From Spirochaetales bacterium (lineage in GTDB: Bacteria > Spirochaetota > Spirochaetia > DSM-2461), in NCBI GenBank assembly GCA_016936295.1, contig JAFGYD010000224.1, forward strand, positions 1-40,885: DNA of 40,885 nt. Reading direction: 5' to 3'. Below, piece by piece: positions 12,525-21,575 of the stretch (its first letter is position 1; every line of letters starts with the position of its first letter). A program made the translations under genes and the position numbers. The notes below the pieces were generated by a model. It made no database searches. It saw only the letters and a list, made by a program, of their open reading frames with translations, and was not told where the DNA came from.

Positions 12525-13793
12525 TTACTCCTGGTTGACAAGTTTTTTAACTATATTTTTTATTTCTTTATGAATAATTGAATTAATTTTGCCTTGTGAG
12601 TAAAAAGCAATATTTAAATGTTTTGTTAGAATAAAAATATCATCTTTATTAGAATTATTAGTTACTAAAGCTAGCATATCTTCAATAGAATACCCTTTTA
12701 AAGAACTTAACTGGGTAACACTTAGTATCCATTTTTTTAGTTGTTTATAATACAGATTTATACCAATAACTCTTAAGAATCCAGCTAAGCTTCTGGTAGT
12801 TTTCTCCTTTTTTATATTTTCAATCCCTGATGTTCTTATATCTAAATACGATTTAACTCCAAGCTCCTTTTTTTTAAAAAATTCCTTAATCCAACTCTTT
12901 ATATTTCCCCAGTATTGAGAAAGTGTTACTTTATTTCTATTTTTAACTAATAAAGGTTTAATTAACGGAATAATAAAAAAGTATATAATCCCGGATAGAA
13001 TTAGTACATAAATGAACTTTTCTAAAAAATTCCAAAGAAAAGTGAGATCCGGATAATTTCTGGGTACTGAATCCTCTTTAGGAATTGTTGAGGATTCAAT
13101 TAAATCAAGAAGAGCAAATTCCTTAGTATTTGCAGGTGGAGGTTCTATTACAATTCCCGAACCAAGTGATAATAGCCAATTAAAAAATCTAAGTATATAT
13201 TCGTAGGGAAATACTTCAATTTTAATATGAATAAAAACTGAAAGTGCGATTGGGGGTAAAATATACTTAAAACTATTTAAAGAGAAATCTCTTGCTGTAG
13301 CTTGTAAAATAATAAGCAATATAAAATCTGCTATTCCAGAAAACAGCCATAAAATGGGATAGTTTATATAACCATTTCTTAAATATAAATAGATAATAAA
13401 ACAGAGTTTTGATACTATTAAAATCATTATATTTTTTGTCCATAATTCTAATACAAAATCTTTTTTACCAAGAATCTCAGATGAAAAAAAGTGATAATAA
13501 ATATTTATTATCATTACAAGGAATATGGAATTTATAATTGAAAAGGGGCCTTTTAGTAGAAAAATAGATATTGCTCCAGAAACAATTATAACAAATATTG
13601 AAATAATATTATTTACAGGATTTCTATCATCTTCAAAATCAAAATAGTTAAATTTTATGGTTTTAATAAAAAGAGGTATTAATCCAATTAATAATATAAA
13701 TATACCAATAAATGAAATTAATATATTTTGAGTTTGATATATAACTGGAAGTAGTGAAAATAGAGTGTAAAAAAAACCAAAAATATAGCTCAA
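12525..13793 (-). CDS. Multi-TM protein, possibly DUF4129-like C-terminus, in MoxR/DUF58 operon
   Basis: Several hydrophobic segments; position after MoxR-DUF58; C-terminal helical domain reminiscent of DUF4129. Confidence 0.65.
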   Translation of the reverse strand: MSYIFGFFYTLFSLLPVIYQTQNILISFIGIFILLIGLIPLFIKTIKFNYFDFEDDRNPVNNIISIFVIIVSGAISIFLLKGPFSIINSIFLVMIINIYYHFFSSEILGKKDFVLELWTKNIMILIVSKLCFIIYLYLRNGYINYPILWLFSGIADFILLIILQATARDFSLNSFKYILPPIALSVFIHIKIEVFPYEYILRFFNWLLSLGSGIVIEPPPANTKEFALLDLIESSTIPKEDSVPRNYPDLTFLWNFLEKFIYVLILSGIIYFFIIPLIKPLLVKNRNKVTLSQYWGNIKSWIKEFFKKKELGVKSYLDIRTSGIENIKKEKTTRSLAGFLRVIGINLYYKQLKKWILSVTQLSSLKGYSIEDMLALVTNNSNKDDIFILTKHLNIAFYSQGKINSIIHKEIKNIVKKLVNQE

Positions 13794-14941
13794 TTGTACA
13801 ATTCCTTTCCATATAGAGATAAATCTTTTATTTGATATTTATTATTCTCAGACTCAACCTGTCTACCGCTACTATTAACAATTGTTATATAATATCTGTT
13901 TTTAAAAAGAGTATTAATTTCAACAATAAATTCAAATGTAATTTCTGGAACAATTATGTAGATATGGGAACCGGATGGTGGTGTACATCCTATATCCTGT
14001 AGTTGCTCTAAAAGAGATAAATTATTTTTATGAGGATAATCAATAACTGATAATAGTGAAAATATTTCCAATATATGTGTATATCCGCTACCTGGAGGAA
14101 TATACTTTACCCCACTCTCATCATAAGTAAAAATAGATGTCATTTCACCCCTTTTCCCATATTCAGAGACAAGAGTTGATGCTAGTTCTAGACACCGATC
14201 TAAATAATTATATCTATTTTTTATACTATATTTTTCTGCATTTAAATCTAGTAAAAGGAAAAGAGGTGAACTTAATGAGTTAGAAAACTCCATAGTCTGC
14301 AACTTCCCTATTTTAGCTGAGGATTTCCAATTAATTCTCTTTAGTGAATCCCCGGATCTATAATCTCTAATTGTTTTTAAGTCAGATAAATCCTCGTATA
14401 AAGGATTCTTTACTTGTTGAAACCCACCTCTAATTCCATTTATCAGTAGTAGTTCCAATTCTGAAATCTTTGGATATACATAGACTTGAAAGTATGTTTC
14501 AACTATCTTCTTCCATGGGAATAGATTTAGTGGATCTGAGCCGGAGATAATTATAGGTCCAATAGTAAATTTACCTCTGGTTTGGGTATTTAAATTATTA
14601 TTAAACAATTTACTACTTTTTTTAGGTAGGGTTTGAATATATTCACCAACACCCTGCTCATAGGCTCCATGCCCTAAATCTTTAATTTCCAACTTATTTA
14701 GAGTAACTAAACTATTATTAATTACTGTAAATTCTATAGATTCAGTTGAATTAAACTGACAATAAATTTCTTCAGCATCTCTAATACAGCTAACACTATT
14801 ATAAGTATATTTAGATAGTAGTAATGAAAATAAATAGAGGAATATAATTGATGACACCAATATTTGAATTATTGGAAATGGAAAGAGTATACCTAAAATT
14901 AGAGTTATTATAAGAAATACAACAGAGACCCCATTTCTCAT
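13790..14941 (-). CDS. DUF58 domain protein
   Basis: DLKTIRDYRSGDSLKRINWKSSAKIGKLQTMEF motif; 4-bp overlaps with its neighbours. Confidence 0.92.
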   Translation of the reverse strand: MRNGVSVVFLIITLILGILFPFPIIQILVSSIIFLYLFSLLLSKYTYNSVSCIRDAEEIYCQFNSTESIEFTVINNSLVTLNKLEIKDLGHGAYEQGVGEYIQTLPKKSSKLFNNNLNTQTRGKFTIGPIIISGSDPLNLFPWKKIVETYFQVYVYPKISELELLLINGIRGGFQQVKNPLYEDLSDLKTIRDYRSGDSLKRINWKSSAKIGKLQTMEFSNSLSSPLFLLLDLNAEKYSIKNRYNYLDRCLELASTLVSEYGKRGEMTSIFTYDESGVKYIPPGSGYTHILEIFSLLSVIDYPHKNNLSLLEQLQDIGCTPPSGSHIYIIVPEITFEFIVEINTLFKNRYYITIVNSSGRQVESENNKYQIKDLSLYGKELYN

Positions 14942-15888
14942 TTACTTTCTGAAGGAACCTCTACACTTTGAAGAACTTGATCCAAAGCTCTCTCTACAGT
15001 TAAACCCTTTAATAAAGTTGCAGGTTTAAGAAGTACTCTCTGTTTTAATATTGAGTGGAATACCGACTTAACATCGTTTGGTGTAACAAAATCCCTTCCT
15101 TGCAGAGCACTAAAAGCTTGGCTACCTTTATATAAAGCCAGTGTCCCCCTGGGAGATACTCCCAAATGGAAAAGATCCAATGTTCTGGTTTTGTTAACCA
15201 AATCAAGAATATAATCCCGTACACTATTATCAACATGAACTTTAACAACTTCTTCTTTGTACTTTAATATTTCACTTAAGGATGAAACTGGTTTTAAATC
15301 ATTTACAGGATGAGTTAACCTTCGTTGACTCTCAAGAATTTCTGCTTCTGCCTCCCTTGAAGGGTAACCTATATTTATTGTCATAAAAAAACGGTCTTTT
15401 TGTGCTTCAGGAAGTGGAAATGTTCCCTCAAATTCTGTGGGGTTCTCGGTTGCAATTAAAAAAAATGGCTCCGGAAGGAGTCTAACTACACCATCAATAG
15501 ATATTTGAAATTCTGCCATTGCTTCTAAAAAAGCTGACTGAGTTCTAGGAGTCGCTCTATTTATCTCATCTACAAGCACAACATTTCCATTAATTGGTCC
15601 TGGATTAAATTTAAATGTTTCATCCCTTGGACTGTATATTGATAGTCCTAATACATCGTTTGGTAAGAGATCTGGTGTTGCCTGAATTCTATTAAAAACT
15701 CCACCTAAAGAGATAGATATTGCCTTGGCTAATACTGTCTTTCCCAAGCCGGGTACATCTTCAAGTAAAACATGCCCACTACAAAGAATTGCAGTCAAAA
15801 TTTGATCAACAACTTCGTTTTTCCCATAGAATACTAAACTTACATTATCCCTTATTTTCTTTGCCCAAGCCTCTATATTACTTGCCAT
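14938..15888 (-). CDS. MoxR family AAA+ ATPase
   Basis: LLEDVPGLGKTVLAKA, RIQATPDLLPNDVLG, LVDEINRATPRTQSAFLEAMAE. Confidence 0.95.
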   Translation of the reverse strand: MASNIEAWAKKIRDNVSLVFYGKNEVVDQILTAILCSGHVLLEDVPGLGKTVLAKAISISLGGVFNRIQATPDLLPNDVLGLSIYSPRDETFKFNPGPINGNVVLVDEINRATPRTQSAFLEAMAEFQISIDGVVRLLPEPFFLIATENPTEFEGTFPLPEAQKDRFFMTINIGYPSREAEAEILESQRRLTHPVNDLKPVSSLSEILKYKEEVVKVHVDNSVRDYILDLVNKTRTLDLFHLGVSPRGTLALYKGSQAFSALQGRDFVTPNDVKSVFHSILKQRVLLKPATLLKGLTVERALDQVLQSVEVPSESK

Positions 15889-16762
15889 AAAGTCTCCTAT
15901 TTATAAAAGTTAACATCCTTTCCATATTTTTAATAGTTTTTTTTGATCTTAACTGAATTGAAGACATATGAATTGTACCCTTTGTATTATTTAATTCAGT
16001 AATATTACCTGCTAACTTTAATGAGTTATGCAAGTTAACACCTTCATCGTGTAGAGGATCGAATTCAGAAACTTCTATATAAGTTGGTGGAAGATTACTA
16101 AAAGATGGTGAAGTTGCCGGGGAAGCGTAAAATGGAATATCCCCTACTACATTTCTTAAATAAAGTTCCCACATAAAACTGTTACTTTCACTATTCCAAT
16201 TAGGTGTATCATTATAATTCTTTACAGATTCTGTTATCTGCCTATGATCTGTTACTGGTGCTATTAAAGTCTGACACTTAATAATTTTAAAATCTCTATC
16301 CCTTGCAAGTAGAGAAACTCCTGCGGCTAATGCACCGCCTGCACTAAAACCTGTAACAAAAATTTTACTAGGATCAATTCCCAAATAAGAGGCATTATTA
16401 TAACACCATGTTAACCCCGAATAACAATCCTCCAGTGGTATTGGATATGGATAATCAAGGGATAGTCGATAATCCACATAGATCACAGCAAATTTTCCAC
16501 GTCTAATATATTCGGATAAAATTTTAGGGGATAGAGCATCCCCTTTTAGATAAAAGCCGCCACCATGAAAATAGACCATACATGGGAGATTTTCATTAAT
16601 TCCCAATGGTTTATATATATAAAGATCTATTGGAGAACCATCAAAAGTCTCTATTACCTTTTTTTCCGATACAATATCACTATCAACTTTTAAAAAGTTG
16701 AGGGAGTTAATAAATGCATTACTTAATCTAATTCTTTTCTCATTATGAATATTTATATTCAT
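15878..16762 (-). CDS. Alpha/beta hydrolase (HSL-type esterase)
   Basis: CMVYFHGGGFYLKGD, FVTGFSAGGALAAG, SEFDPLHDEG. Confidence 0.9.
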   Translation of the reverse strand: MNINIHNEKRIRLSNAFINSLNFLKVDSDIVSEKKVIETFDGSPIDLYIYKPLGINENLPCMVYFHGGGFYLKGDALSPKILSEYIRRGKFAVIYVDYRLSLDYPYPIPLEDCYSGLTWCYNNASYLGIDPSKIFVTGFSAGGALAAGVSLLARDRDFKIIKCQTLIAPVTDHRQITESVKNYNDTPNWNSESNSFMWELYLRNVVGDIPFYASPATSPSFSNLPPTYIEVSEFDPLHDEGVNLHNSLKLAGNITELNNTKGTIHMSSIQLRSKKTIKNMERMLTFINRRLYGK

Positions 16763-16819
16763 TAACGCTAATAATTGATAATCTTTATCTATTTTATACT
16801 TTTTAAACGTAATTAACTC

Positions 16820-17329
16820 CTAATAAAAATTCCTTATATTTCTTCCTAATGGCTCATACTTACCTTCACGACCAATTCCTACACCAATACTAAATGTGGA
16901 ATTAACCCCATAATCACTGCTTATGTATATGTTATACGAACCACTTCCATTTAATTCCCCAACTAAAATTTCAATTCTTTTTTCAAATGGATTAAAAAAT
17001 GGAATATTTCTATTATCAAAGGTGTAGTACTCATCATCATTCCAAATTTGAAGATCAATATTTTTTATAAATGAACGAAATTGGTATATATCATAGTTAC
17101 CAAAACTATCTTTTTTTTCAAAAACAAGCTTTACAACACTCTTTCCATTTAAGGTAACACTGTCCCGAATAACCGATCTATTTTCACTTAAATCAGGGGA
17201 GAGATAGTATAATCCCCCCTCAAAACCTGAATAATAGGGGGAATATATTATAATAGCTGCTGTTACCAGAAGAACTAGAACTGCAAAAGATATATAAATT
17301 ACAAATGCAAATTTTGTTTTTTTTATCAT
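16820..17329 (-). CDS. Hypothetical protein with one N-terminal TM segment
   Basis: SD taataGGAAGtaATG; hydrophobic N-terminus FAFVIYISFAVLVLLVTAAIIIY. Confidence 0.7.
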   Translation of the reverse strand: MIKKTKFAFVIYISFAVLVLLVTAAIIIYSPYYSGFEGGLYYLSPDLSENRSVIRDSVTLNGKSVVKLVFEKKDSFGNYDIYQFRSFIKNIDLQIWNDDEYYTFDNRNIPFFNPFEKRIEILVGELNGSGSYNIYISSDYGVNSTFSIGVGIGREGKYEPLGRNIRNFY

Positions 17330-17338
17330 TACTTCCTA

Positions 17339-18634
17339 TTATATTTCATTTAAATAGTCCTGAACAGATTGAGCAAGAGTTTTATAAATCCAGTCTCTTT
17401 TATCATCGTCATCTTCTAAAAGTGTAAATCTAAATCCCTTTAGTCCAGAATAAAACCCGGATAATGGAACAACACAAATTCCTGTCGCACCTAGTAGATA
17501 ATAAACAAATCTCTTATCATCTGGAACACCAATAACTGCTTCTTCAATGTAAGATTTTACACTCTGATTTTTAATTTGTAAAACACCTTGATTACTTAGT
17601 TCATTAAAAATAACGGTCATGTATAGACCTCCAGATGGTTTAATAGAGGTAATACCATTTATTTTGGAAAAATATTTCCATGCGTGATCTGCCCTATTTG
17701 AGAATTTATTAGCTCTTACTTTTAAATGTGTTGTATATCTTTCATCACCTAAAATTTCAGGAAGAACAATTTGAGGAAGTGTTGTAGAACATACTTCTAG
17801 CCTTTTTGCATTAATTATCGAATCGATATATGTTGAAAATTCAGTATCAATATGTCTATTGTAAACCTCTGCCCAACCACATCTTGCTCCTGGCCAAGGT
17901 AGTTCCTTAGACAAACTTCGCATGGAAATAGCTGGTACATTTTTTATTACATCCGATAAAAATGTCCATTCTGTATTTGGAAAAGTAACATTCGCATAGG
18001 TTTCATCGCAAATTATAAATAGATCGTACTTTTCTGCTAAGTTTACAATTGATTCTAAAATCCATTTTGGATAGACAGCACCTGTAGGATTATCTGGATT
18101 AATAATTAAAATACCGGCAATTGAATCATTGTATTTTATCTTATTTTCCATCTCTTCTAAATCTGGGAACCAATTATTTTTAGGGTCAAGGCTATAAGTT
18201 AAGTGCTCGTAACCTGAATGAGCAGCCTCTGCAGATGAGTGTGTAGAATAGGCTGGAGACGGGCCAAGAATTCTTGCCTCTCTTTTTAAATAATTATAGA
18301 CTTTACTTATTGCATCACCTAATCCGTTAAAGAAAATGATGTCATCCATTGTTATTTTGGTTGTACCACGTTTATTTACAATTTCAGATAAGAAAGATCT
18401 TGTTTCAAGATGCCCCTGACTATCGGTATAACCAAAGCTTAAGCTATCCTGAGCTCGCTCGCTAACTTTATCTCTTATCCAACTGCTTACAATCTCACCT
18501 TTCTGAACAGGATCTCCAATATTTTCCCAAACAACTTCCTGCCCTAAACTGGATACTTTTCTGGCAATTTTAACTATTTCTCTAATTTCGTAGGTAAGTT
18601 TACCTGCCCCTTCATGTACTATACTTCTTCTCAT
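17339..18634 (-). CDS. PLP-dependent aminotransferase, class I/II (alanine-aminotransferase-like)
   Basis: ENIGDPVQKG, IINPDNPTGAVYP, ICDETYANV, SMRSLSKELPWPGARCGW; SD CAGGAG. Confidence 0.9.
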   Translation of the reverse strand: MRRSIVHEGAGKLTYEIREIVKIARKVSSLGQEVVWENIGDPVQKGEIVSSWIRDKVSERAQDSLSFGYTDSQGHLETRSFLSEIVNKRGTTKITMDDIIFFNGLGDAISKVYNYLKREARILGPSPAYSTHSSAEAAHSGYEHLTYSLDPKNNWFPDLEEMENKIKYNDSIAGILIINPDNPTGAVYPKWILESIVNLAEKYDLFIICDETYANVTFPNTEWTFLSDVIKNVPAISMRSLSKELPWPGARCGWAEVYNRHIDTEFSTYIDSIINAKRLEVCSTTLPQIVLPEILGDERYTTHLKVRANKFSNRADHAWKYFSKINGITSIKPSGGLYMTVIFNELSNQGVLQIKNQSVKSYIEEAVIGVPDDKRFVYYLLGATGICVVPLSGFYSGLKGFRFTLLEDDDDKRDWIYKTLAQSVQDYLNEI

Positions 18635-18670
18635 ATTAACTCCTGGGTACAGTTAGAAAGGGGTTAAATA

Positions 18671-18701
18671 AAAAAACCACAGTTTCTAACTGTGGTTTTT
18701 T
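18671..18701 (-). terminator. Intrinsic terminator in the 5' leader of the aminotransferase gene (attenuator terminator)
   Basis: Minus strand: AAAAACCACAGT-TAGAA-ACTGTGGTTTTTTT, U-run on the minus strand, 37 nt before the ATG. Confidence 0.8.
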
Positions 18702-18720
18702 AATGTTTAAATACGACAAA

Positions 18721-18789
18721 CTACCACAGCAAATGCAATGCTTTGGCGCTGGCTGAGATAGTATTTGTTTTAGCAATATATATAAACAT
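18721..18789 (-). CDS. Putative 22-aa leader peptide MFIYIAKTNTISASAKALHLLW
   Basis: Minus-strand ORF, stop TAG overlapping the antiterminator strand; promoter directly upstream; not in ORF track because too short. Confidence 0.6.
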   Translation of the reverse strand: MFIYIAKTNTISASAKALHLLW

Positions 18790-18795
18790 ACAAAT

Positions 18796-18824
18796 ACTAT
18801 ATATTCCTAATTATTATTGGTCAA
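18796..18824 (-). promoter_or_regulatory. Promoter of leader-aminotransferase unit, TTGACC-N17-TATAGT
   Basis: -35 18819-18824, -10 18796-18801, 6 nt before leader ATG. Confidence 0.7.
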
Positions 18825-18828
18825 TATA

Positions 18829-18837
18829 TGTTATAAT
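18829..18837 (+). promoter_or_regulatory. Extended -10 promoter TGTTATAAT for the GGDEF gene
   Basis: Ends 6 nt before ATG at 18844; no SD. Confidence 0.55.
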
Positions 18838-18843
18838 TACATT

Positions 18844-20091
18844 ATGAGTAAAAGAATTTTATTTATTGAAAAAAGTGATTTTTTTGGTAGAGCAACAAAA
18901 TATAAATTAGAAACCACAACCGATTTTCAAATTTTATGGTACAGATCAAACATGGAATATGTTACAGGAAATCATGACTATACTTTACTGGATATGGCAA
19001 TAATTGATTATAACGAGGGTGATACATATACAAATTCAATGCTGGATATATGCTTTAAAAACAAAATCCCAATTGTATTATTAGCTAGTAAAATAACCCC
19101 TACGTTACAAGAGAAGATGTGGAGTCTGCAGGCTATAGATTATATTATTAAAGGATATAACTATAGTATAGACAATATTATAGATATTATAACAAGATAT
19201 TTTAGTAACAACACATCTGGAATTTTATTAGTTGATAACTGTATAGAATCACGTAAACACCTTAAAAAATTACTAAAACTACACAGGTACAGGATATTCG
19301 AATCTTCAAATGAGACGGAATCCCTGGAAATTCTAAAGGAACATCAAGAAATTATTAAGTTGGTCATTGTTGGACATAACGATCCTGAATTAAATGGGTT
19401 AGAATTAACTTCAGAAATTAGAAGACACTATTCTATGGACAAATTAGCAATAATAGGAGTTTCCCTACAGGGAAATCACTCATTAATGGTTCAATTTATA
19501 AAAAGTGGTGCAAATGATTTTATTAGTAAACCATTTATAAGTGAACTCTTATACTGCAGGGTTATTCAAAATATAAAAGTAGTTGAATATTTTAACAAAA
19601 TTAAAGAGCTAGCAATTATTGACCCATTAACAGGATTAAACAATAGGCATTTTATTAAAGAGGCTGAATCTATTATTATTGAAAATTCCAAAAGACATAA
19701 TTTAGTTATTTGCGGAGCAATGATTGATATAGACGACTTTAAAGCAATAAATGATACATGGGGTCATGATGCGGGTGATATTGTTCTTAAAGAGATCTCA
19801 AAGGTATTAAAAAATTCAATAAGAAAATCTGATATAATAATTAGGTATGGTGGTGAAGAATTTCTTATTATAGGAAATAATTTAGACCCAATCCATGCAG
19901 AAAAATTCTTTAATAAACTAAGGGTGACTATTGAAAATTTAAAAATTAACATAGGTAAAAAAATTGTAAATGTAACTATAAGTATTGGTGTGTGTACAAC
20001 CGAAGAAGATAATCTTGAACAAATAATAAATATTGCCGATAAAAAACTATATGAAGCAAAAAATAGTGGGAAGAATAGGGTTATTATTTAA
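18844..20091 (+). CDS. REC-REC-GGDEF diguanylate cyclase
   Basis: Two receiver-like domains then DPLTGLNNRHF...RKSDIIIRYGGEEF (I-site RxxD plus GGEEF). Start placed at ATG 18844 instead of TTG 18817. Confidence 0.9.
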   Translation: MSKRILFIEKSDFFGRATKYKLETTTDFQILWYRSNMEYVTGNHDYTLLDMAIIDYNEGDTYTNSMLDICFKNKIPIVLLASKITPTLQEKMWSLQAIDYIIKGYNYSIDNIIDIITRYFSNNTSGILLVDNCIESRKHLKKLLKLHRYRIFESSNETESLEILKEHQEIIKLVIVGHNDPELNGLELTSEIRRHYSMDKLAIIGVSLQGNHSLMVQFIKSGANDFISKPFISELLYCRVIQNIKVVEYFNKIKELAIIDPLTGLNNRHFIKEAESIIIENSKRHNLVICGAMIDIDDFKAINDTWGHDAGDIVLKEISKVLKNSIRKSDIIIRYGGEEFLIIGNNLDPIHAEKFFNKLRVTIENLKINIGKKIVNVTISIGVCTTEEDNLEQIINIADKKLYEAKNSGKNRVII

Positions 20092-21575
20092 TGGGTAAAG
20101 TTTTTTATACATACTTTAATAGTGATAATATAAATACAATAACAAACAGTATTGAAGGTAAAAAAGAGTACTCCTGCATTATTCCCTACCATAGCGATGA
20201 TTCTGAACTACTAATTTCACGCTCAATCTTAAGTCTATTAAAAACATTCAATAAACATAAATATCACCATAAAATATCTATAATTGCCAATGAACTGGTT
20301 TCATCGGCTGATATGATAAATATAACAAGAATATTTTTTCAAGAAAAAAACTACAACTCCTTAACAGAAAGTGATTATGAGAAAGGTGTTGAAGCACTAT
20401 TTAATTCTTGCTTCATTGAGGATTTTAATAAAAAAATTGCTTATATTAAAATCGATCTTAAAGCATCAAATAGTAATTTTTCTATAAAACTAGAAACCAA
20501 TAGCCCAATAAACCCTATAGATAAAGAACTTATTGAGAAAACAAAACTTTTAGCAAACAGTAATAATATATACGACATATTAAGATATAGCGAAAAACAA
20601 CATAGAACTACAGGTTATGGATTTTTAATATCCATCCTACTACTTAAATCAATGAATTTAAGGTCCGAAATCATACAAGTTCTAAGTGAAGATGATAAAA
20701 CCAGGATTGAATTAAATATACCTTTAAATGATATTGTTATTAATAATCACGAACAAATCTCAAACGATGTACTAAATGAAATTATTAATTTACCGCAATT
20801 CCCGGATAGTATTATGAGACTTCAAAAAGAGATAATGGATCCAGAATGGGATTATTCCAGAATTTCAGATTTTATTCTTTCAGATTCATCCTTAACAGCG
20901 GAAGTTCTTAGATTAGTTAATTCACCAGTTTATAGAATAGAGGATCCTATTGATAAAGTATCTATTGCTGTAAAAAAAATAGGTATAAATGGTCTTAAAT
21001 CAATATTATACACTTTTGGAGCTTTAGAAATTCTTGAAAAGAACTATGATTTCCTAAAAATAAAAACATTTAAAGATCATCTTTTTCAGGTTGCTTTAAT
21101 TTCAAGCTATCTTGCAAATAAAATGGGTCTCGATATATTTTGTGAAGATATCTATGTGGCAGCATTAATGCACGATATAGGGAAAATAATAATTTTTGCC
21201 CTTGAACCAGAAATTGAAGAGAAAATAAATAGTATAAATCAATCTAAAAAATTACCATTGGATATTATTGATAATATTTTTGATGGTTATAACCACTCTA
21301 TTATAGGGTCTAAATTAGCTGAGAAATGGAATTTCCCCGAGAAGTATATTAAATCAATAAAATATCATCATACCCCTGATATTGTTCCTGACGAGTATAA
21401 AATTATTACATACTGTGTTTATTTAGGGAATGAAATATATCATACCATAGTGGATGAAAATAAATACTGTAATATTGACCCGGATGTACTTGGATTTTTT
21501 AATTTTGAATCACTGGAAAATTTTAATCAATTTATTAAAGAGCTAAGATCCCAGGGGATAGTAATGGATTTATAG
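20091..21575 (+). CDS. HDOD domain protein with possible N-terminal HATPase-like region
   Basis: LPQFPDSIMRLQKEIMDPEWDYSRISDFILSDSSLTAEVLRLVNSPVY; AALMHDIGKI; start overlaps the GGDEF stop by 1 nt. Confidence 0.85.
   Translation: MGKVFYTYFNSDNINTITNSIEGKKEYSCIIPYHSDDSELLISRSILSLLKTFNKHKYHHKISIIANELVSSADMINITRIFFQEKNYNSLTESDYEKGVEALFNSCFIEDFNKKIAYIKIDLKASNSNFSIKLETNSPINPIDKELIEKTKLLANSNNIYDILRYSEKQHRTTGYGFLISILLLKSMNLRSEIIQVLSEDDKTRIELNIPLNDIVINNHEQISNDVLNEIINLPQFPDSIMRLQKEIMDPEWDYSRISDFILSDSSLTAEVLRLVNSPVYRIEDPIDKVSIAVKKIGINGLKSILYTFGALEILEKNYDFLKIKTFKDHLFQVALISSYLANKMGLDIFCEDIYVAALMHDIGKIIIFALEPEIEEKINSINQSKKLPLDIIDNIFDGYNHSIIGSKLAEKWNFPEKYIKSIKYHHTPDIVPDEYKIITYCVYLGNEIYHTIVDENKYCNIDPDVLGFFNFESLENFNQFIKELRSQGIVMDL

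Follow-up and report, generated by a model that had tools for sequence, protein, structure and literature searches.

Ribosome-mediated attenuation of trp, his, leu and thr genes in proteobacteria relies on a leader ORF with control codons, a segment 2 at the end of this ORF, mutually exclusive 2:3 and 3:4 pairings and a biosynthetic gene downstream. The spirochaete leader described here shares this design, but differs from the proteobacterial systems in its control residue (alanine), in its host, in a uORF that is probably leaderless and in matching no Rfam leader family (12 loci searched).

In Streptomyces lividans, alaL was predicted before alaS, and its authors regarded the type as previously undescribed (PMC8079986). 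Like the spirochaete leader, alaL encodes an alanine-containing leader peptide and is a proposed alanine sensor. However, it precedes the gene of an alanyl-tRNA synthetase, has no long Ala run (MNVIGRNIFATARATSSPVAAA) and is a prediction from one genome, whereas the spirochaete leader precedes an aminotransferase gene, is found class-wide and is accompanied by covariation. In mycobacteria, the whiB7 uORF attenuator is reported to be linked with alanine starvation and with aspC, a gene of alanine synthesis (Poulton et al. 2024, cited in PMC13236596 and PMC10727445). It resembles our leader in these links, but works through a transcription factor and responds to antibiotics as well, whereas the spirochaete attenuator would lie directly on the enzyme gene. 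The trpL leader of Sinorhizobium meliloti is leaderless, its transcript beginning at the leader AUG (PMC7298713). The same RNA start is predicted here, followed downstream by classical attenuation as in trpL, which differs in concerning tryptophan and an anthranilate synthase gene. For alanine aminotransferases of the Escherichia coli alaA/alaC/avtA type, PMC4094517 mentions no attenuation.

In the open-licence literature we found neither an alanine attenuator before a biosynthetic gene nor a report of ribosome-mediated attenuation in spirochaetes; this control is known for other amino acids and apparently not for an alanine-synthesis gene. The first-pass annotation of the locus, made from its sequence, had been aware of no well-described alanine attenuator, which has to be qualified by the predicted alaL of S. 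lividans.

We propose that this locus works by ribosome-mediated transcription attenuation, sensing charged alanyl-tRNA and thereby controlling an aminotransferase that synthesises alanine, a reading to which we assign a probability of roughly 0.86. We also consider it likely that the leader belongs to an undescribed, class-wide family of spirochaete alanine attenuators, placed directly on an alanine-synthesis gene and characterized by a leaderless uORF and a relay sub-type (2:3/3:4, then 4:5/5:6). With such a family, alanine would join the few amino acids read by ribosome-mediated attenuation, here with a biosynthetic target, and this mechanism would extend to spirochaetes.

Architecture of the locus

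The locus lies in the window (the whole stretch of 40,885 nt that was analysed), which is contig C49 of a genome with 81% completeness. The features are as follows.

18819..18824, minus strand: -35 box TTGACC; TTGAC(C/A/G) is likewise placed in nearly all relatives
18796..18801, minus strand: -10 box TATAGT, with a 17-nt spacer to the -35 box and 6 nt from the leader ATG
18721..18789, minus strand: leader ORF of 22 codons, MFIYIAKTNTISASAKALHLLW and stop; orthologous Ala-run leaders in relatives
18739..18753, minus strand: control codons Ala-Ser-Ala-Lys-Ala (GCC AGC GCC AAA GCA), positioned as the Ala4-8 run of relatives
18740..18746, minus strand: segment 1, CCAAAGC, a possible partner of segment 2 in ribosome-free RNA; not specifically supported
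18723..18730, minus strand: segment 2, GCTGTGGT / GCUGUGGU, spanning the last leader codons and the stop
18688..18697, minus strand: segment 3, AACCACAGUU, common to antiterminator 2:3 and terminator 3:4 (ACCACAG at 18696-18690)
18675..18684, minus strand: segment 4, AACUGUGGUU, 3' arm of the terminator (CTGTGGT at 18682-18676), then the U-tract
18669..18701, minus strand: predicted intrinsic terminator, a stem with A/T extension and U-tract (stem search and folding)
18640..18646, minus strand: Shine-Dalgarno sequence CCAGGAG of the aminotransferase gene (AGGAG at 18644-18640)
17339..18634, minus strand: gene of a PLP-dependent class I/II aminotransferase, PRK06855 family (ATG at 18634)

Promoter, leader ORF, segments 1 to 4, terminator, Shine-Dalgarno sequence and ATG agree base for base, coordinates included, with the first-pass annotation. 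In a promoter scan of the window region, TTGACC-N17-TATAGT was the best promoter-like site of the neighbourhood, and it is predicted to be a sigma-70-type promoter. A standard terminator scan of the same region reported no site at the attenuator, and a likely reason is that the stem extends into the T-tract; a looser stem search recovered the stem as AAAAAACCACAGTT/AGA/AACTGTGGTTTTTT.

From these elements, their geometry, their class-wide conservation and the covariation in both helices we infer the transcription start, the translation of the ORF, the stalling of ribosomes on it and the efficiency of termination. Transcription would start at or near the leader ORF AUG. When Ala-tRNA is plentiful, the leading ribosome would reach the stop codon and cover segment 2, leaving segment 3 to pair with segment 4, and transcription would end ~35 nt short of the gene. 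When Ala-tRNA is short, the ribosome would stall at the Ala codons without reaching segment 2; 2:3 would then pair before segment 4 is made, blocking the terminator and allowing the enzyme to be made. In the window and ~30 related genomes, the leader thus very likely restricts synthesis of the enzyme to conditions in which charged alanine tRNA is scarce.

Conservation of the leader ORF and its alanine codons

The decisive support for the putative attenuator is comparative. Relatives were searched at family, class and phylum level and in named genome contigs, yielding 81 usable orthologue upstream regions, mostly from draft genomes: 42 from the same class (Spirochaetia) and 39 from outside. A leader ORF with at least four Ala in six codons (4-6 in these orthologues) was present in 31 of the 42 same-class regions and in none of the 39 outside the class (Fisher p=2×10−13, which overstates independence because the genomes are related). 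Dinucleotide shuffling of the 42 regions gave a mean of 0.55 Ala-rich ORFs. A terminator-like hairpin was similarly distributed (31/42 versus 1/39). The Ala leaders are spread over eleven family-level groups of the class, and the occurrence of these predicted leaders in eleven families versus none outside the class excludes a sampling effect. Some members of the class lack them, mostly in one genus (g2), where a nearby upstream gene may be co-transcribed with the aminotransferase gene. Retention of the gene with loss of the leader ORF or of the 2:3 complementarity, which the first-pass annotation had named as evidence against its reading, was not the situation in 31 of the 42 same-class genomes.

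In relatives, the leader has a run of four to eight Ala codons held at a fixed position: in each of the 29 leaders tabulated it begins 10-14 codons downstream of the start codon, while the flanking residues change. Examples from other genera are MNKRSDLYTNSILSAAAAAAFQHGIAG (L011), MSGITSSCTVLRTTAAAAAAHTGAVV (L017), MIVRSSDVQILLAAAAAAP (L075) and MNINSNLQTVPLIEAVAAAAAITQASGN (L074). All four Ala codons occur (GCA 55, GCC 41, GCG 30, GCT 10), so it is the Ala residue rather than the bases that is conserved. Of all leader residues, 25.5% are Ala and 7.6% Leu. Leucine, which the first-pass annotation had kept as a second candidate for the sensed residue, was dropped, and the preference of the annotation for alanine is borne out by the position and length of the runs.

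Within the window's own genus the run is variable. The window leader (MFIYIAKTNTISASAKALHLLW) has three Ala in six codons, none of them consecutive (S-A-S-A-K-A); that of congener G001 (MNTYKALQLNNSAKASVINSLW, L005; NSAKAS) is as diluted, whereas congener G002 (MENKDFKKIIFTKAAAALSYCGY, L004) retains A-A-A-A. If only the residue rule is applied, the window counts as a weak instance and as one of the two weakest members. The Ala-rich stretch of the earlier annotation thus has its Ala codons in place, but as a diluted run.

Two leaders of families f21 and f31 (L053, L078) extend 10-15 codons past the Ala run; a possible segment 2 follows the run directly, a second hairpin lies at the stop codon, and the simple scheme does not fit these two leaders.

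Pairing, covariation and folding

Segment 2 overlaps the final codons and the stop, in some genomes reaching a few bases beyond it, and segments 3 and 4 form the hairpin that precedes the U-tract. By itself, the 2:3 match of the window is marginal (p~0.09 versus dinucleotide shuffles). An RNAduplex-versus-shuffle test gave too much noise, and ungapped helices and then curated segments were used instead. With segments defined automatically as ungapped helices, which failed for the relay form and some GC-rich leaders, 14 of 33 leaders reached p<0.05 (combined p=2×10−12, relatedness ignored).

Covariation was examined in 27 leaders with segments curated by hand. Standard pairs occupied 255 of 274 cells (93%) in 2:3 and 261 of 274 (95%) in 3:4, and double changes were found in 8 of 11 columns of each helix. 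When partners were swapped between genomes, pairing fell to 84-85%, and the observed value was reached in 0 of 1000 trials. Segment 3, for instance, reads CCACAG in the window genus versus CCGCGG in most relatives, and segments 2 and 4 change to match. A chance 2:3 match could account for the marginal value in the window alone, but the covariation is not attributable to chance.

Ribosome states were simulated in the same 27 leaders by folding only the RNA left ribosome-free. With the first Ala codon occupied by the ribosome and segment 4 still to be transcribed, 2:3 formed in 26 of 27 leaders; with the ribosome at the stop codon and segment 2 masked, 3:4 formed in 26 of 27. The window leader behaved as the model requires in both states. 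Constrained folding and a leader alignment had been put forward as checks by the first-pass annotation, and both favour its attenuator logic: the window switches, the Ala run is kept, and 2:3 and 3:4 covary among relatives. In most starved full-length folds the minimum-energy state is still the terminator, so readthrough would have to be kinetic. Classical attenuators likewise depend on kinetics for readthrough.

The four-segment scheme of the annotation fared less well in its first element. The 1:2 hairpin formed in free RNA of all 27 leaders, but synonymous recoding yielded almost as much. Complementarity to segment 2 is inherent in GCN codons, and 1:2 pairing is therefore no evidence of selection. 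Segment 1 is thus not supported as a selected element, while 2:3 and 3:4 stand.

Covariance-model searches

A leave-one-out covariance model built from 17 leaders, with the window excluded, recovered 18765-18670 in the window (E=1.5×10−6). In the whole genome of the window, the leader was the only credible match (E=1×10−4; next match E=5.6). Among 398 genomes of the same class, strong matches were found only before the aminotransferase gene. The weaker matches inspected, which were part of the list, contained no further Ala leaders before other genes; they comprised a His leader before a hisG-like gene, a leader type of family f30, and terminators. Rfam gave no amino-acid leader or riboswitch match up to E=1 at 12 loci, the only hit being a sub-threshold SNORA71 match on L022.

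The His leader (L121; G082:C41:26644-26745, same class, family f18) is a probable histidine attenuator: it contains four His codons in a row, and a terminator lies 81 nt upstream of the hisG-like ORF. The f30 type (L120, L124, L127) has conserved short leader ORFs (MVRFISYCMTSDVYVKERDLS, MTMTTLKFSYITFIVMTPLRGDLS and MIRIFSYLAKVSVEGDLS) and two successive terminator-like hairpins before a gene other than the aminotransferase gene.

Start of the leader ORF and the relay sub-type

In 21 of 28 leaders, 6-8 nt separate the -10 box from the leader ATG. The leader ORF is therefore probably leaderless, with the RNA start at or a few nucleotides from the AUG. If so, initiation on leaderless RNA becomes testable in spirochaetes.

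In L042, L069, L070, L071 and L073, from five genomes of one genus, and likewise in L076, no U-tract follows the first hairpin. The 3' arm of this hairpin pairs instead with the 5' arm of another one further downstream, which does have a U-tract. Folding of intermediates gave 2:3 then 4:5 in the starved state; in the fed state, 3:4 then 5:6 formed in the five leaders of one genus, and in L076 5:6 formed only when 3:4 was held fixed. Since the fed state of the five leaders ends in 5:6, the relay would keep the sign of control, and it illustrates how such a switch can lengthen without a sign change.

Alternative explanations

The dilution of the Ala run in the window raises the question of how well this species still senses alanine. 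The same attenuator may have decayed or broadened here, giving a weak alanine response or a general response to slowed translation, with the terminator mostly a constitutive brake. This would fit the absence of consecutive Ala codons in the window and in G001 next to the A-A-A-A of G002. However, the 2:3 and 3:4 complementarity, the promoter, the spacing and the position of the Ala codons have all been kept, and some classical attenuator leaders also have interrupted control codons. We regard decayed sensing as unlikely, but as a possibility to be taken seriously.

Other explanations dispense with alanine sensing. A uORF acting in trans, as peptide or small RNA, has a precedent in the leaderless trpL of S. 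meliloti, which yields a trans-acting RNA and peptide (rnTrpL and peTrpL; PMC7298713), and sensing of ribosome-targeting drugs has one in whiB7-type uORFs, which respond to antibiotics (PMC10727445). Outside the Ala run, however, the peptide is not conserved, and the amino acid of the run fits the biosynthetic enzyme that is the target; either substitute for alanine sensing is very improbable, while an added trans role would be compatible with alanine attenuation. We give still less credence to an absence of regulation, with the hairpin as terminator of another transcript or the ORF as a relic of a LysR-type gene. The A-tract on the opposite side of the hairpin could indeed make it act in both directions, and FIYIAKTNTISASAKALHL resembles, by eye, the start or amino-terminal helix of LysR proteins. 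A Pfam search with the window leader peptide, however, gave no match, and the leaders of relatives are not LysR-like, yet have the Ala run, promoter spacing and covarying segments in common, so the relic reading was dropped.

The aminotransferase and neighbouring genes

We return to the target of the proposed alanine attenuator. Pfam assigns the product of 17339..18634 to the PLP-dependent class I/II aminotransferases. It matches PRK06855, an unspecified aminotransferase family, with 638 bits (cut-off 443), and scored 156 bits against the alanine-aminotransferase equivalog PRK08363 (cut-off 534), which places it outside that equivalog. Its best match by sequence among solved structures is the E. 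coli glutamate-pyruvate aminotransferase AlaA (4cvq; E=6×10−37), followed by 1xi9, a putative transaminase. Among E. coli AlaA, AlaC and AvtA (PMC4094517), AlaA is thus the closest solved relative, but the window enzyme differs from all three in belonging to the well-separated PRK06855 family. The enzyme is probably an alanine (glutamate-pyruvate) aminotransferase, its substrate being inferred from these relationships, in line with the alanine-type aminotransferase named by the first-pass annotation. The leader would provide an independent functional label, indicating that a loosely named PRK06855 aminotransferase serves alanine supply.

Behind the aminotransferase gene, closely spaced genes on the same strand (12525-17329, minus strand) encode a 169-aa protein of no assigned function, an alpha/beta hydrolase, a MoxR-type ATPase and two proteins without NCBIfam match; they may be co-transcribed and hence also alanine-controlled. 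Divergent from the aminotransferase gene, a response-regulator/GGDEF protein and then an HDOD protein are encoded at 18817-21575 (plus strand), and these genes have one intergenic region in common with the attenuator promoter.
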